In this document: positions 20,270-58,773 of the stretch, piece after piece
How positions within the stretch are numbered: the stretch's first letter is position 1
Layout of the letters: each line of letters opens with the position of its first letter
Assembly: GCA_947449695.1 (NCBI GenBank)
Contig: CANFST010000016.1
Coordinates: 1 to 59,095 of the forward strand
Origin: Chitinophagales bacterium
GTDB taxonomy: Bacteria > Bacteroidota > Bacteroidia > Chitinophagales > CAIODY01
Length of the DNA: 59,095 bases
Direction of reading: 5' to 3'
Translations under genes and position numbers: made by a program
Notes under the pieces: model-generated
The model's input: only the letters and a program-made list of their open reading frames with translations
The model's database searches: none
What the model was told of the DNA's origin: nothing

Positions 20270-22099
20270 TTGTTCTTGAAAAATTTTAGCTCAATAGTGT
20301 TGATTGCAATTTTCGTTTTGCTTCCAAATCTATTTTGCAATCAACTTATAGAACCAGAAAACAGCTTAAAATTACTAGTATTATCAAGCATTTTAGCTGT
20401 TTATTTGCTATTTACCATTTTTAAAAAAAACTCATTACAAGTAATAAGAATTCCGTTCGGATTTACTTTTCTACTTTGCTTCATCCTATTAAAGTTTACT
20501 GGCATTTTTTTTTCGTACAACAAATCTGAAGCAATTTTTGATTCATTACTTTGGTTAGTTTCTACATTAGTTAGCATTCTAGTTTTAAATGATTTCATTA
20601 ATAAAGAAATCACAATTCAAAAAATTTCCATGCTAGCAGCTTGTGCCAGCATTTGCTTTACTGGCTGGGGTATTTATTCGGCAATGTCTCAAATTAATCT
20701 TTTAATAAAAAATCATCGGCCGATTCATGTTGATTATCTAATTTGTTCCTCATTAGGAAACAAAAATTTTTATACCCAAGTTTGTTTTTTGCTACTTCCT
20801 TTTTTAGTGATTGGAATTAAAAAACTTGATTTGATTTCAAAAATATTTGTAGCATTTGCAATTGTATTAAATGTGGCATCAATAATTGTTTTGAAAAGCT
20901 TTGCAGTTTATATAGCTAGTGCAATTACAATTTTAATAGTTCTCTATTATTTGATGAGAAACAAGAAACCATTATTATTTTTTTCAACCATTATAATATC
21001 AGTGCTGTGTTTTATTTTTTTTAGTTTAAATCTCAAAACACAATTTTTATCTAATCGAATTGCTGAGTTCTCAAATGCAAAATCAGTCCCTGATAATATC
21101 AATAGCAGTGCCGAAAGAGTAATGTTGTGGCAAACTTCATGGAAAATAATCAAAGAAAATCCATTTGGAATTGGAACTTGTAATTGGGCAATTTATTTCT
21201 TAAAATTTTCACCAGATTGCTCACTAATAAACAATTATGGTGAGATGAAATACAAACGGCCACACAACGATTTTTTATTGATATTCTCAGAAAATGGTTG
21301 GCTTGGTTTATTTGTTTTTCTAATATTTTTTGCAATATTATTTTACCAATGTCTATGTATTCCAAAACGCGATTTAATTAAATATTCTTTATTAACAAGC
21401 CTTACTGGATTTTTCATTTTTTGCTTATTTGATTTTCCAATGCAGCGATACTATGGTTTGCAATTACTTTTTATTGCAATTGCGCTTATTTCATTTTTCT
21501 CAATTCGGCAAAAACATATTTTTTCGAAATGCATTTCAATTCCTAAAAAGTCTTTTTTAATTGTGGCAATATTGATTGCAATCTCATCAACATGCATAAG
21601 TGCTATGCGCCTACAAGGTGAATTTATGCTGTACAAAACCATTGAAAACCGATTGCAGGGAGATTGGTGGCAGATGAACGAAAGCGGTAAAGCCTCATCG
21701 GGTGTATATTACACACATGACCCAGTTGGGCAACCAATAAATTGGTATCGGGGTATTGCTTTACTAAATCAAAATAAAACATACGAAGCTAAATGCTATT
21801 TTTACAAATCATTAGAACAAAACCCGTTTCATTTTGAAAGCTGGAATGACTTAGGTTCATGCTATGAAAGACTTGGCAACAATGATTCTGCAATTATTTG
21901 TTTTAGGCGAAATTTGAAATTTGCGCCGCACCATCCCAATTCGTCATTTAATATGGCGGTTATGATGTTTGATAAAATTCAGTATGATTCAGCTCAATTT
22001 TTTTTAAGGAATTATCCATATAAAAACTTTCCTGAATATTTAGCATTCACTAAACAATTGAATGATTCTTTACATCACAGCAACATTTCAAAAAAATAG
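20270..22099 (+). CDS. O-antigen ligase-like membrane protein with C-terminal TPR repeats
   Basis: The 609-residue protein has about twelve membrane segments and a Wzy_C/WaaL-type loop near residues 275-345 (SSAERVMLWQTSWKIIKENPFGIGTCNWAI, then KRPHNDFLLIFSENGWLGL), the pattern of O-antigen ligases and related polymerases. After the last helix (about residue 430) come tetratricopeptide units (WNDLGSCYERLGNNDSAIICFRRNLK). It starts at TTG 20270, immediately after the previous stop, or at TTG 20276; no ATG occurs in the first 120 codons. It probably joins glycan chains to a lipid or protein acceptor at the periplasmic face, with the Wzz-like protein as partner. Confidence 0.8.
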   Translation: MFLKNFSSIVLIAIFVLLPNLFCNQLIEPENSLKLLVLSSILAVYLLFTIFKKNSLQVIRIPFGFTFLLCFILLKFTGIFFSYNKSEAIFDSLLWLVSTLVSILVLNDFINKEITIQKISMLAACASICFTGWGIYSAMSQINLLIKNHRPIHVDYLICSSLGNKNFYTQVCFLLLPFLVIGIKKLDLISKIFVAFAIVLNVASIIVLKSFAVYIASAITILIVLYYLMRNKKPLLFFSTIIISVLCFIFFSLNLKTQFLSNRIAEFSNAKSVPDNINSSAERVMLWQTSWKIIKENPFGIGTCNWAIYFLKFSPDCSLINNYGEMKYKRPHNDFLLIFSENGWLGLFVFLIFFAILFYQCLCIPKRDLIKYSLLTSLTGFFIFCLFDFPMQRYYGLQLLFIAIALISFFSIRQKHIFSKCISIPKKSFLIVAILIAISSTCISAMRLQGEFMLYKTIENRLQGDWWQMNESGKASSGVYYTHDPVGQPINWYRGIALLNQNKTYEAKCYFYKSLEQNPFHFESWNDLGSCYERLGNNDSAIICFRRNLKFAPHHPNSSFNMAVMMFDKIQYDSAQFFLRNYPYKNFPEYLAFTKQLNDSLHHSNISKK

Positions 22100-24547: not shown

Positions 24548-26731
24548 TTAACTCCCTAATTCTAATTGATTTTTTACTAATTCAAAGTACTTTCCTCTTG
24601 CTTCAGTTAAAGTTTGATGCGAACCTGCTTCTACAATTTTTCCATCTTCCAATACTAAAATCTGATCGGCATCTTTTACTGTGCTTAACCTATGCGCTAT
24701 AACCACCACCGTTTTATTTTTATAAAACTCTTTTAATTGCTCCATGATATATTTTTCGTTGTTCGCATCCAATGCGCTCGTTGCTTCATCAAAAAATAAA
24801 TAATCTGGATTTTTATAAACAGCTCGTGCTATTAAAATGCGTTGCTTTTGCCCCATGCTTAATCCATCGCCACCCATACCAATTTTTGTTGAAAGCCCAT
24901 TTGGTAAAACCTTTACAAATCGTTCGATATTGGCAATTTTAACAGCTTGTATTAAACGAGCAGTATCAACATTTTCATCGCTGCCTGAAATATTTTTTGT
25001 AATCGAATCGGTAAAAATAAATCCATCTTGCATCACTGCTCCTATTTTAGTACGCCATACTTCGCTATTGATTGATTTTAAATTAGCATCACCCACCATT
25101 ATTTCGCCTTGCTGCGTTTCATAAAATTTCAATAACAATTTTAATAGCGTTGTTTTGCCACTTCCGCTGGTACCAACAATGGCTGTAACTTTCCCTTCAG
25201 GAAACTGACAAGAAATATTTTTTAAAACCTGTGCATGTTGAGGACCTTCATAGCCGAATGACACATTCTGAATAGTAATAGATTTATCAGCTGGCAATTG
25301 CACAATAAATTGTTGTTGTTCGTCCACTTCATTTTTCATGCTATTCACTTCACCTAATCGTTCGATACTGGTTTGTGCGCCTTGTAGCGAACGGAAAAAA
25401 TCTAACAATCGTTCGATGGGTGCACTCATTTGACCAATGATATAAGCGATTGCCATCATGGTTCCTAAAGAGATTTGACCATCAATCACCAATCGGGCAG
25501 ATACATAAGAAACAATAATATTCCGTAACTGATTAAAAAAACCGCTGCCAGCTTGTTGCAATTGCAAAGTGTTCAGCATTCGCATATTCACCTGAAACAT
25601 TTGTGTTTGTATGCGTTCCCAATCCCAACGTTTTTGTTTTTCGGTACCATTTAATTTTATTTCGGGCATACCCACAAGCAGCTCATGAAGCGAACTTTGA
25701 TGCGATGACTGACGTTTGAACATCAGGTAATCTAAATTTTTCATTTTCTTTTGGAAGAGTAAAATCCAAACAATTGACAATAAACTTCCTACTAAAAAAA
25801 TGACCACTATTTTCCAGCTAAACACCATCAGCACCAATGAAAACACTAACAGATTGAACATGCCAAACAAAGTTTGCAAGCTGGTTTGCGTTAAAAAATT
25901 TTCGATGCGCTTGTGGTCTAAAATGCGTTGTGTTATATCACCCATCATTTTTGATTCAAAAAAACTAACTGGTAATTGCATGATTTTATACAAATAATCG
26001 CTGAGCAGCGAAATATTTATTCTAAACCCTACGTGCAACAAAATCCTGTTTCGCACCATTTCGATGACTATCCGGCTGAAAAAAATCATCAATTGTGCAA
26101 TCAGAATTAAATTGACAAAACTCAAATTCTGATAATTGATTCCCTTATCAACCATCGATTGGGTAAGGAATGGCATCATTAAATCAAACAAACTCACTAC
26201 CAATAAACCAACAAATAACTGAACGATGAGTTGCTGATAATTTCTGATATAGCCATATAAATATTCGAACCAATTTTGCTTTTCTTCCACTCCTTCATTA
26301 TCGGCCTGATGAAAGGCTGGTGTGGGTTCAAACATCATTACCAAGCCAAATTCGCTTTCTTTACTGTAATAACTTTTTTGTAATTCTTGCTTAGGCACTT
26401 TCACCAAACCATGCCCTGGGTCAGCAATGTAAGCCACATCACCTTTAATTTTATACAACACCACAAAGTGTTCTTGCTCCCAAAATAAAATGCACGGAAA
26501 GGGTACTTTATCTTTCAAATCATTCCACGATGCTTTGGCAGCAGCACTTCGCAAACCAATTTTTTCGGCAGCTGTGCTGATAGAAAGCATACTCACTCCG
26601 CTTTTGGTGAGGTACATTTGATTGCGCAAATATTGCAACGAATAGTTTTTGCCATAATGCGCCGCTATCATGCGGAGGCATGATGGACCACAGTCCATTT
26701 GGTCGTGTTGTGGAAAAAACGGAAATGCCAC
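24548..26731 (-). CDS. Peptidase C39 domain-containing ABC exporter
   Basis: The 727-residue protein combines an N-terminal C39 peptidase domain (about 1-140), six membrane helices (about 165-450) and an ATPase domain (480-720). The protease has HDQMDCGPSCLRMIA with Cys14, EHFVVLYKI with the catalytic His and IADPGHG with Asp. The ATPase has GTSGSGKTTL, LSMGQKQRILIARA and LFFDEATSALD. Such transporters cut double-glycine leaders while exporting bacteriocins or signal peptides. The catalytic residues are intact, so cleavage is expected. The HlyD-like adaptor follows immediately. No precursor peptide with a GG leader was found nearby. Confidence 0.92.
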   Translation of the reverse strand: MAFPFFPQHDQMDCGPSCLRMIAAHYGKNYSLQYLRNQMYLTKSGVSMLSISTAAEKIGLRSAAAKASWNDLKDKVPFPCILFWEQEHFVVLYKIKGDVAYIADPGHGLVKVPKQELQKSYYSKESEFGLVMMFEPTPAFHQADNEGVEEKQNWFEYLYGYIRNYQQLIVQLFVGLLVVSLFDLMMPFLTQSMVDKGINYQNLSFVNLILIAQLMIFFSRIVIEMVRNRILLHVGFRINISLLSDYLYKIMQLPVSFFESKMMGDITQRILDHKRIENFLTQTSLQTLFGMFNLLVFSLVLMVFSWKIVVIFLVGSLLSIVWILLFQKKMKNLDYLMFKRQSSHQSSLHELLVGMPEIKLNGTEKQKRWDWERIQTQMFQVNMRMLNTLQLQQAGSGFFNQLRNIIVSYVSARLVIDGQISLGTMMAIAYIIGQMSAPIERLLDFFRSLQGAQTSIERLGEVNSMKNEVDEQQQFIVQLPADKSITIQNVSFGYEGPQHAQVLKNISCQFPEGKVTAIVGTSGSGKTTLLKLLLKFYETQQGEIMVGDANLKSINSEVWRTKIGAVMQDGFIFTDSITKNISGSDENVDTARLIQAVKIANIERFVKVLPNGLSTKIGMGGDGLSMGQKQRILIARAVYKNPDYLFFDEATSALDANNEKYIMEQLKEFYKNKTVVVIAHRLSTVKDADQILVLEDGKIVEAGSHQTLTEARGKYFELVKNQLELGS

Positions 26732-26843: not shown

Positions 26844-28378
26844 TTATTCTTTTACAAATTTTTTAATTTCAACATTTCCTTTTTCATCTACTACTTTTAA
26901 AATATAAATGCCATTAGGAAAGCAACTTGCATCTATTTTCATTTCTTGATTGGTTGAATTAGTGATTGGTTGATTGAACACAACCTGCCCTACAACATTT
27001 TCTATTTGTATTTCTTTCACTAAAAATTGAGCACTTACCATTAAAAACTCTCCAGTTGGGTTGGGATAAACCGTTAATCGTTTTTCATTCATCGTTACTT
27101 CTTCTACCCCTACCCCACAAGTTATTTTACCTAAAGCATAGTTAGGCACATTTGGCAAGCCGCCATCGCTAAAATGAGCTTCGCTATTATTATGCCCATA
27201 ATAGCCAACCGTGCCAAAGGTTATTTGCCGCTGCTTAAATTGGCAAAAAGTATCTAATAAATCGGGTTTGTTTATTACATGTATATTTTGTGTGCTGCCA
27301 TAAGTGCTTATATATATTTTGCCATCGGGGGCATTTTTCATCTGCCAGAAATAGGTATTATTAGGAATGTTAAATCCATCCCAATCACCTACATCAATTT
27401 TATTATAATAAGGATTTGAATTTTGCAAATCTAATTGATACATATTCACTCCGTTGGTTACATAAATAAACCGATTGTTAGGAGAGAAACAAGCCCCAAC
27501 TGCTGAAAGTGTATCGTGACGAACTGGTGGTTTTGATAACGTAATTGATTTATAATTGCTTACCATCCCAGTGCATCTATCAAAATCACAAATATCTAAT
27601 TGAGAAGGTAATGCTATTGGTCCTCCTTCTTCATATAAATAAAATAATTTACTTCCGTCAATTGATGAATTCCCATTTCCAAAATTTATTGATTGTTTCA
27701 TAAATGGGATACCTATATTTTGAATAATTGGTTGATGAGGACCGCTACTATCCACCAAAACCATATAAAATTGATTGCTGTGAAACTTACGGACAATTAC
27801 CCACCAATCTTTACCATTTCCATGTTTTATAGTATATACGTTACCCTCTTGTAAAGTATCTCCTTTTACAATAACCGAATCTTTAAAAACCACATCACCT
27901 AAGCCACCATCTAATCTTTTATCTACTACTAAATATTGCAATCTATCAGGTAAACCTAAACCAAAATTGTTAAACTCATCGTTTTCATAAAACATATAAA
28001 ATTGGTTAGTGTCTTTTACAAATGGAATAATAACACAACCATTTTTTATAGGAAAGATGCCATTTGATGCGATATAAGGATTACCATAAGTGCCGTGATT
28101 AAAATTGCCGCCATTGGGCATTTGCTGATAGTTCCGATTATACACTTTGTAGGAATTGCTATAAAAGAGCAAGTTGCCATTATTGTCGCAAATGTTAGTA
28201 CAGCCTCTTGTTAATATTAATGGGTTAGTATAATTGGTAGAGTCCGCCAATCCGATTCCGCTTCTAAAATCAAGATTACAATTTCTGCCTACTACCCAAA
28301 ATTTCGCAGTTTGAGCAAAACATTGAATACTCAATAGTGAATAGTGAACAAATACAAAAAAAAGAACTATTTTTTCAT
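26844..28378 (-). CDS. T9SS-sorted secreted protein; start displaced by a frameshift
   Basis: The coding part ends in a type A T9SS domain (LTVYPNPTGEFLMVSAQF to VEIKKFVKE), preceded by a beta-rich region of about 400 residues that begins AKFWVVGRNCNLDFRSG. The frame extends upstream of any ordinary start and there encodes a convincing signal peptide, KIVLFFVFVHYSLLSIQCFAQ. The only ATG in place, at 28376-28378, is out of phase by one base: six A residues follow it, and a seventh would give MKKIVLFFVF. Without that base the first usable start is TTG 28332-28334, which would leave a defective signal. It lies 13 bases after the upstream secreted protein gene. Confidence 0.75.
28370..28375 (-). 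other. A6 homopolymer at the start of the T9SS gene (frameshift site)
   Basis: On the minus strand the ATG at 28378-28376 is followed by six A residues and then TAG, ending after two codons. Seven A residues would join the ATG to the signal-peptide frame. This may be strand slippage, a real inactivating deletion or a sequencing error. Confidence 0.6.
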
Positions 28379-28391
28379 GTCGTTGTGTTTT

Positions 28392-29432
28392 TTAGTGATT
28401 AGGAATGCTTTGCATACGCAAGTAGTGATTGATGACAATACTGTTGTATTGTTGTTGGTTTACTTCGGGCTGCAAGGTAGCCGTAATGCTATTGTTCAAG
28501 GTTTTAGCATCGGTATAGTTGCCGCTATTCATCAATTGTTGCACTTGATTAAATTTACCTATATTACCATTCGTAGCTTCGTTGTACCAATTTATAATGT
28601 CGGGATAGCTCAAGGCTGCTGCTGCCCATTGTTTATTCAAATTGTATAGATAGCTCATTTTCGCAGCGTCGGCTGCATCCATGTTGCTTACATCTAATGT
28701 AGCAGGGCTATTGGTAATGCTATATAATCTATCATATAATTGTTGCTTATCATTCCAATTAGCGGCATTAAACCAAGTACACATTTGCTCATTGAAATAA
28801 AACCCTGCCAATGTTTTATCTATTTCGTTTTTATGAATAGGCAGGGCTTTTAAATTAGCAGAATTACCACAGCTTAGGTTGTTAATGGGAAAAGGAACTG
28901 AAATTGGTTGCAGGGCATTAGATAAATAAATATTTCCACTAACATCAGTAGCAGTGTTGTTTGTTGGTGTTGTTTTATAACTTGACCCTGCTGTGTTTGG
29001 TAAGGTGTAAAAAGCTGTACCAGAATAATTATTATTTGAATTACCACCAATAGCCCCATTACTAAAAACTGTTTCATTAGGGCTGTGGTTGGGGCTGCTG
29101 TTGTGTGTCCACACATTGCCATTTACAGTTTCATTGCCAGGTGTATTATCGCCTTGCTGCCCAATAGTGCCGTTGGGTTGGCTTATTTCTAATTGTATGA
29201 AGTTATCATCCATTTGGTTGCGTATAAAACCGCCTGTGTTTGGGGCGTTTAAATCGTTTTTGCCATTAAATACAAACCCTTTACCAAGGCGGTGTGCTTC
29301 GTTGCATTTAATTTTTACACTATCAGTATTTTTTAGAATAATTGAATCGGTAACTATACTATGTAACTCTTGCCAATTTTGCGCTTTGGTTTGTGAAAAT
29401 GCAAAAATTAAAATGAGGAAAATGTTTTTCAT
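28392..29432 (-). CDS. Hypothetical secreted protein
   Basis: The 346-residue protein has a signal peptide (MKNIFLILIFAFSQTKAQ) and an Asn/Thr/Gly-rich middle (about residues 80-165) typical of surface-exposed regions. The remainder is more helical and contains KTLAGFYFNEQMCTWFNAANW and a region like tetratricopeptide units (QVQQLMNSGNYTDAKTLNNSI). No T9SS tail is present; the protein ends RMQSIPNH. Its C-terminal region resembles the ends of large Bacteroidota surface proteins, so it may be a partial paralogue. It is probably co-transcribed with the downstream T9SS protein gene. Function is not recognised. Confidence 0.65.
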   Translation of the reverse strand: MKNIFLILIFAFSQTKAQNWQELHSIVTDSIILKNTDSVKIKCNEAHRLGKGFVFNGKNDLNAPNTGGFIRNQMDDNFIQLEISQPNGTIGQQGDNTPGNETVNGNVWTHNSSPNHSPNETVFSNGAIGGNSNNNYSGTAFYTLPNTAGSSYKTTPTNNTATDVSGNIYLSNALQPISVPFPINNLSCGNSANLKALPIHKNEIDKTLAGFYFNEQMCTWFNAANWNDKQQLYDRLYSITNSPATLDVSNMDAADAAKMSYLYNLNKQWAAAALSYPDIINWYNEATNGNIGKFNQVQQLMNSGNYTDAKTLNNSITATLQPEVNQQQYNSIVINHYLRMQSIPNH

Positions 29433-57881: not shown

Positions 57882-58773
57882 TCATTTCATTACTTTCTGT
57901 TGCCACAGTTTTTTCCCATTTTGGTCTTTTTGTTCAATGATGTAAATACTTTGTGGCAATGCACTCATATCTATTTCATTGGCTATGCTACTGTTGGCAA
58001 CATAAGGTTGCTGCACTATTATTTGACCCAATAAATTATACAATACCAATGTGGTATTGCTATTATTTGCTGCATTACACCACACTTCCAAGTGTTTGTT
58101 ATTCGCATTATAAAAAGCATTGTTACCACTTGGCAAATTAGGTTGTTCAACTTCTTCATAAATTGAGGATAAATTATCTACCCATTCTATCCCAGCTCTA
58201 TCAGGCGTAACACTCCAACCTTCAATAGCAATATATTGATAATTATCATCAGATACAAACTCAACTTTATAACGATGCCATACACTATCTAATGGTGGCG
58301 ATAACCAAGCTTCTTGATTATACTCACATAAATGCTTACCTAATAATATTTTTAACATCCCAATATCGCATTGTGTGCAGTATTTAAATCTAACCACACA
58401 AGCAGCATCTAAATAAAAATAATATTTTTTCCATTGCTGCAAAGTTCCATTCAATTGCACTCCTAATATCTTATTAAAAGAATCTAATCCTTGTGATACC
58501 GCCCCCCCCCCCAACGTTAATGCAATAAGTTCCATTAGTGGGACTTTGAGTAGTGGGAACAAAAGCATTTCCAAAATTTTCTCCAGTAATCCATGGGGTA
58601 GGAAAGTAACTGCAAATATGCCATGTGAAAAATTGGTCATTATTAATGTCCACGTTCTCAAAAGAAGAGTCTGGAATAGTAATTACACTTTGACAAAAAG
58701 AAGGCTGTAGGGTCGAAAGCAATATCAACAACCCTACAACCTTTACAAACAATATTTTCTTAATGCACCACAC
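57882..58773 (-). CDS. T9SS-sorted surface protein, out of frame at an 11-base G tract
   Basis: The 5' part starts at GTG 58773, has a signal peptide (IKKILFVKVVGLLILLSTLQPSFCQ) and runs through ITIPDSSFENVDINNDQFFTW to CINVGGGGG. It then leaves the frame at the G tract and stops after ITRIRFF. The 3' part, in another frame, continues from GGGAVSQGLDSFNKILGVQLNG through WSVTPDRAGIEWVDNLSSIYEE to a type A sorting tail (VWCNAANNSNTTLVLYNLLGQII to WQQKVMK). Ten or thirteen G would join them into one protein of about 296 residues. The mature part resembles a beta-sandwich surface domain. In the state shown, no intact protein can be made. Confidence 0.82.
58502..58512 (-). repeat. Poly-G tract (11 G on the coding strand), candidate phase-variation switch
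   Basis: Eleven consecutive C on the plus strand lie inside the coding region of the T9SS protein and coincide exactly with the point where the two halves change frame. It is the only G/C homopolymer of this length in an otherwise AT-rich window. Confidence 0.85.

Follow-up and report, generated by a model that had tools for sequence, protein, structure and literature searches.

Organisation of the locus

The window examined here, that is, the whole analysed stretch of 59,095 nucleotides, is contig C16 of a draft genome of 99 contigs with 4% estimated contamination, represented by one assembly only (G000, the window's own genome); among the genomes used for comparison, G001 and G002 belong to the same genus and G003 to G005 to another genus. 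On the minus strand of the window, an ATG is followed by six A residues and then by TAG (Table 1), as the earlier sequence-only reading had stated, and a ribosome initiating at this ATG would make M-K-K and then stop. One base out of register with this ATG lies a frame of 508 codons, which begins IVLFFVFVHYSLLSIQCFAQT, contains no internal stop and ends at the stop codon at 26844-26846. Read from 28370, it starts as IVLFFVFVHYSLLSIQCFAQ, a signal-peptide stretch coded out of frame with the ATG. The same reading had held that the frame continues upstream of its first ordinary start. This is correct as far as it goes; the frame in fact reaches 28370 and beyond, opening downstream of the TAA (28394-28392) that ends the preceding gene, and the TTG at 28334 is only the first start codon listed for it. 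No ATG, GTG or TTG occurs in the long frame between that TAA and that TTG.

The C-terminal part of the frame matches the type A sorting domain of the type IX secretion system (T9SS) with 44 bits for PF18962 (cut-off 27) and 39.8 bits for TIGR04183 (cut-off 23). The proposal of a T9SS protein whose signal peptide stands one base off its ATG is borne out by the sequence. Like other T9SS type A cargo (PF18962/TIGR04183), the focal gene combines a signal-peptide stretch with a C-terminal sorting domain; unlike such cargo, its signal peptide is detached from a start codon. Since no start codon is placed so as to include the signal peptide, the long frame is not expected to yield an exported protein. 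Initiation at the TTG should likewise give no exported protein, since a Sec signal peptide is described as a property of T9SS effectors in PMC12618676. An AlphaFold model of the focal protein, built with 18 aligned sequences, has a mean pLDDT of 78 and is predominantly beta; its C terminus forms a beta domain of its own. Foldseek matches of this model are mainly beta-propeller proteins, PorZ being the first, with low TM-scores; we take only the fold class from this list and describe the predicted protein as propeller-like.

Table 1. Features of the focal locus and poly-G tracts of the genomes compared. Positions without a contig label are those of the window.
Feature	Position or contig	Strand	Tract and frame	Basis or remark
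ATG, start codon of the out-of-register reading M-K-K-stop	28376..28378	-		sequence
A6 run after the focal ATG	28370..28375	-		sequence; ATG-A7 in paralogues L002, L003, L006 and in L011 of G001
TAG closing the ATG frame after two lysine codons	28367..28369	-		sequence
Signal-peptide coding stretch, in the long frame, without a start codon	28311..28370	-		cleavage end by eye
508-codon headless frame, T9SS surface protein, mostly beta, propeller-like	26844..28370	-		translation, profile match, model
First TTG of the long frame; a start there would be without signal peptide	28332..28334	-		sequence
T9SS type A C-terminal sorting domain (PF18962, TIGR04183)	26853..27071	-		profile match
Upstream gene, 346 aa, signal peptide by eye	28392..29432	-		no Pfam or NCBIfam match
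Downstream C39-peptidase ABC transporter	24548..26731	-		93% and 84% matches in G001 and G002
Frame change in the second T9SS gene of the window (G000:C16)	58502..58512	-	G11 (C11 on plus strand), out of frame	frame scoring; T9SS tail by Pfam
N-terminal part of the second T9SS gene, GTG start possible, signal peptide by eye	58513..58773	-		frame
C-terminal part of the second T9SS gene, another frame	57882..58499	-		sorting domain 57900-58100, 28.5 bits (cut-off 27)
Tract	G000:C4		G8, in frame	T9SS tail by Pfam
Tract	G000:C17		G9, in frame	T9SS tail by Pfam
Tract	G000:C86		G11, in frame	T9SS tail by Pfam
Tract	G000:C79		in frame	T9SS by eye: YPNPANT motif, then stop; no Pfam match
Tract	G000:C25/C27			T9SS by tail match at C25:558-731, another frame; no Pfam match on the pieces
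Tracts	G000:C11, G000:C61			not T9SS cargo; no Pfam match
Tract	G000:C21			not T9SS cargo; phage-sheath-like by eye only
Tract	G000:C32			not T9SS cargo; PagL
Two tracts	G000:C81			not T9SS cargo; SBBP protein
Tract (L316)	G000:C40:16610-16620		G11, in frame	helix-turn-helix gene, not T9SS cargo
Tracts	G001:C20, G001:C57		out of frame	T9SS by Pfam
Tract	G002:C446		in frame	T9SS by Pfam
Tract gene	G002:C366			T9SS by alignment with the focal tail
Tracts	G002:C16, G005:C367, G005:C368, G003:C6		frame change	scoring non-coding
Tract	G004:C27		frame change	glycine-rich, secreted-looking protein

Start codons in the paralogue family

The genome G000 holds ten further members of the focal family, full or partial (E below 1e-37), the best of which is 64% identical. 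All eight of these other members that have a 5' end carry an in-frame ATG with a signal peptide. Two of them, L003 and L006, begin ATG-A7, as does L011 of G001; in L002, the nearest paralogue, two ATGs are in frame, and the second of them is followed by A7. It is the length of the start-adjacent run that sets the frame: six A in the focal gene, and seven with an open frame behind them in L002, L003 and L006. When the own genome, the relatives and GTDB genomes are taken together, 68 of 76 family loci have an ATG and a signal peptide, five have a GTG or TTG reading and three have none, the 76 being 79 loci minus L010, L065 and L070 (whose N terminus is not covered) and with some contigs counted twice. 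The three loci without a start reading are the focal gene, L049 and L073, the matches of the latter two beginning late in the query.

These starts bear on two ways in which the focal frame might still yield an exported protein. The frame is open at 28370, where it reads ATA, a rare start codon of translation table 11; use of this codon would give a signal peptide without a basic n-region, and since all eight other own-genome members with a 5' end use ATG with a basic residue close behind, we regard such a start as highly improbable. Alternatively, ribosomal or transcriptional slippage on the A6 run before TAG could produce a fraction of full-length exported protein. By our own reasoning, while TAG occupies the A site the lysine tRNA in the P site could slip back by one base on A6 and pair again, which would yield M-K-K-I-V-L and onwards. 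However, the shift site is not conserved across the 76 loci, the great majority of which (among them the eight own-genome members) have their ATG and signal peptide in frame. The runs treated as slippage-prone in Baranov 2005 (PMC1088944) consist of nine A or T, which is longer than the A6 here, and A_AAA_AAA is, according to PMC5009743, much less shift-prone than A_AAA_AAG in E. coli. Recoding of this kind is, in our estimation, very unlikely.

Constraint and lesions in the family

The focal frame aligns with L002 in one segment, and dN/dS between the two is 0.186, a rough value given a dS of 1.5. Unique residue changes are about even between the two, 29 versus 32 when L003 serves as the outgroup and 26-37 versus 30-40 over six outgroups. 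The loss of register in the focal gene looks recent, because the body of the gene is still constrained (dN/dS about 0.19) and is open over 508 codons.

Other family members are visibly damaged. L007 (G000:C66:8328-9797) carries two compensating frame changes, which are not at a long homopolymer; the short out-of-frame stretch between them shows five TGA, and a different genetic code for this gene was considered and rejected on account of the stretch being out of frame. A member at G005:C347 has an internal TAA, and in a member at G001:C22 homology is lost near residue 302. What is seen in L007 and at G005:C347 points to plain decay within the family. The focal locus could, by the same token, be a permanent pseudogene with an incidental A run and no switching, one more copy in decay in a family that gains and loses genes rapidly; the family has many copies, and members of it stand at the ends of several contigs. 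We consider this rather improbable, since the focal body is stop-free over its whole length and under normal constraint, and since two family copies, at G001:C57 and G002:C366, change frame at runs of G.

The paralogues L005 and L006 share 442 bases at 96.6% DNA identity, with about 69% in other parts, a pattern that suggests gene conversion.

Chance and sequencing error

The string ATGAAAAAATAG occurs seven times in the 3.14 Mb of G000, the focal site included. Four of the other six sites lie inside long frames (L080, L083, L085, L086) and one in very short frames (L081); the last, L084, leads into a -1 frame of some 65 codons and was not taken for a gene. Among 75 of the 160 ATG-A6-T[ACT] places of the genome, five have a -1 frame of at least 40 codons opening within 60 bases, and only the focal place is a long frame with a signal peptide. 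Four candidates for further broken starts were dropped: L131 and L151, with frames of only 52 and 44 codons, and L093 and L143, without a signal peptide. In addition, L093/L123 adjoins a recombinase-like gene and has a later Met.

The pattern ATG-A7-T[ACT] is found at 111 places in G000, versus 25 for the reversed pattern. Fourteen of 30 sampled ATG-A7 places look like ordinary gene starts, most of them with signal peptides by eye, and perhaps 50 genes of this genome start in this way; an A run alone is therefore not a dedicated switch. ATG-A8 occurs at 58 places, and seven of the 30 examined look like gene starts. No broken start was found among these 30 ATG-A7 and 30 ATG-A8 places, which are the first in contig order and not a random draw. 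When the window was scanned for coding paths (42 coding segments), no other frame break emerged, save that at the G11 at 58502, which the scan missed owing to the N-terminal part there scoring as non-coding.

These controls weigh on the question of whether the base is truly absent in the cell, as we think probable, or whether the cell has seven A and the focal gene is ordinary and ON, the missing base being an assembly or consensus error. An error would fit a body that is open over 508 codons and constrained. It fits less well with a window otherwise free of breaks apart from the missed G11 and with 60 sampled A7 and A8 places of which none is broken; moreover, a run of six is short for short-read sequencing errors. 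According to Antonov 2013 (PMC3711429), BLASTp-validated singleton frame breaks are expected to be sequencing errors and not genuine indels. Because of this expectation, and because the locus is known from one draft assembly, we judge an error to be unlikely yet the most serious of the competing explanations.

Neighbouring genes and the search for an orthologue

The upstream gene of 346 residues has matches, mostly to C-terminal pieces, at G000:C85, G000:C86, G001:C27, G001:C57, G002:C469 and G005:C105, and the contigs concerned also carry members of the focal family. The downstream ABC transporter gene served as a synteny anchor. In G001, the contig ends 235 bases past this transporter, just inside a frame ending ETKKLVVNK, which by eye resembles a sorting tail, and no focal orthologue is reachable there. 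At the corresponding place, G002 has an EamA-like gene and an open frame exceeding 2132 codons instead of the focal gene (both named by eye). No orthologue was found among the 60 genomes searched, own genome included, nor in a further search that may pass over the records closest to the window's genome; beyond the own genome, identity reaches 44% at best, as against 64% for L002. A search of viral contigs gave no relative.

Poly-G tracts in the focal family

The focal gene contains no poly-G tract. Such tracts are present in its relatives: the family member at G001:C57 changes frame at a run of eleven G, and that at G002:C366 changes frame at a G7 and has another run of eight G in frame. The own paralogue L005 (G000:C86) carries a G11 in frame, at the place homologous to the out-of-frame G11 of G001:C57. 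The two proteins are identical at 325 of 482 residues, and the dS between their genes is 1.64, with synonymous sites near saturation. Given this dS, and given that GGG accounts for 7.6% of the glycine codons used by 16 window genes, it is unlikely that three to four consecutive GGG codons have been kept at one place by chance. The G11 of G000:C86, with its counterpart in G001:C57, is a long coding tract beyond chance, at most 0.03 runs of G11 or more being expected in G000. That a second species shows it at the homologous site of its own assembly also speaks against an artefact.

Poly-G tracts across the genomes and T9SS genes

The genome G000 contains 14 separate tracts of G8 or more, or 13 if those of C25 and C27 are taken as one, whereas Markov models of order 0 to 4, trained on the window after shortening of its G11, predict 0.6 to 5. 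Of the internal tracts, three consist of eleven G, versus at most 0.03 expected for G11 or more. The pieces G000:C25:1-23 and G000:C27:3-15 are contig ends in a G run, and they resemble parts of one T9SS-type gene; the assembly seems to be broken at this tract, the bearing of which on variation in tract length is suggestive only.

The cargo repertoire of this genome is very large: across its 3.14 Mb, 132 T9SS type A tails exceed the Pfam cut-off. By a strict Pfam count, four of the 13 tracts lie in T9SS-tailed genes (C4, C16, C17 and C86), and a looser count that adds C79 and C25/C27 gives six. With 7.6% of the genome taken as T9SS frames, the binomial P is 0.013 for the strict and 0.0002 for the loose count, both being rough values that rest on the summed open frames of the 132 tail places and ignore composition. 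The remaining seven tracts are outside T9SS cargo (C11, C61, C21, C32, C81 twice and C40). At G000:C40, the stop of the helix-turn-helix gene overlaps the ATG of a propeller-family gene that is 26% identical to the focal protein and has no type A tail among those listed; a coupled switch of the two genes is possible.

In G001 and G002 taken together, four of six tracts are in T9SS genes. In the other genus (G003-G005) the figure is one of ten, namely G004:C17, in frame and T9SS-like by eye with no Pfam match, the other nine having been judged without Pfam. Over the own genome and G001-G005, nine of 30 scored tracts are frame changes: three in T9SS genes (C16, G001:C20 and G001:C57), one at the C25 contig end, four in sequence scoring as non-coding, and that of G004:C27. 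Copies of poly-G genes are thus found both in frame (C86, C4 and C17) and out of frame (G001:C57 and the 58502 tract of C16).

A probable OFF allele and candidate contingency loci

We hold with moderate confidence that one paralogue of this family of surface proteins, which are exported through Sec and T9SS, is present at the focal locus as a genuine OFF allele of recent origin. Its start-proximal run was probably once A7, as in three own paralogues, and would have lost one A by replication slippage, leaving expression off. The sequence-only reading had offered three alternatives, namely a gene switched off, slippage that restores some protein, or a base missing from the assembly; the first is the best supported, by the in-frame starts of all eight own-genome members, the constrained body and the relatives in two genomes that break at G runs, and the other two are rated lower. 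Reverse slippage would switch the gene on again, so that the state would be reversible in principle, if slowly because the A6/A7 run is short.

The closest precedent is inlA of Listeria monocytogenes, in which, according to Orsi 2010 (PMC2831843), a 5' A7 contracted to A6 near the start leads to an 8-residue peptide, at rates of about 5.5e-7 for A6 to A7 and about 3.9e-8 for A7 to A6. The focal gene is like inlA, as there described, in that an A7 to A6 contraction by the start would give a very short peptide, here of three residues; it differs in being Bacteroidota T9SS cargo, known from its sequence, and the reversion rates are those of inlA. Measured against these rates, switching at the focal locus would be slow.

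The focal allele fits a wider pattern in the genus, in which other T9SS genes, the focal family included, carry tracts of 7-12 G. Copies that are in frame here and out of frame there would correspond to the anatomy of slipped-strand phase variation, and we read the G tracts in T9SS genes as homopolymer phase variation of surface proteins, with tract lengths that may vary in the population. The G tracts of the relatives belong to the type that in Neisseria and Campylobacter is called poly-G/C contingency loci. Compared with those loci, the present genes are similar in having long G tracts in surface-related genes with copies in and out of frame, and dissimilar in being T9SS cargo of Bacteroidota, in being static sequence and, for the focal gene, in having an A run.

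We lean slightly towards the view that part of the T9SS surface repertoire of the genus consists of homopolymer contingency loci, a pattern that may be adaptive, with start-proximal A7 runs as a slow extra layer. This would involve at least two T9SS cargo families with gene-body poly-G of 8-12, single copies of which are ON or OFF: the focal propeller-like family and an 'N-L-x-x-N-x-x-F-E' family (named by eye). It would also include the G000:C40 tract in the helix-turn-helix gene that overlaps the propeller-family gene. Counting against the OFF allele and its place in this pattern are the shortness of A6/A7, the lack of poly-G in the focal gene and the seven of 13 tracts that are outside T9SS cargo.

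Discussion of phase variation in Bacteroidota has mainly concerned DNA inversion. Should the poly-G tracts prove variable, this genus of Bacteroidota would use slipped-strand phase variation for T9SS cargo; a genuine OFF allele would show that a start switch of one base in a family of surface proteins can be captured in a draft genome. Genes of this sort will appear in gene-caller output as truncated and lacking a signal peptide. A literature search that lacked most subscription journals returned no report of T9SS cargo switched by homopolymer tracts; phase variation in the accessible part of PMC3796261 concerns autotransporters and Bap, not T9SS cargo.

Short-frame tails and tandem repeats

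Nine stretches with T9SS tails in short frames were considered. Three of these are cut by contig ends, and among the six analysed (frames of 73-258 codons) no break at a homopolymer was found, which counts against the proposed pattern; three of the six look like whole small genes, the others being fragments or ambiguous. In addition, AT-rich 41-bp tandem repeat arrays of about six copies each are present in two contigs, near 21999 of G000:C1 (L190) and near 92008 of G000:C5 (L211), with similar repeat units.
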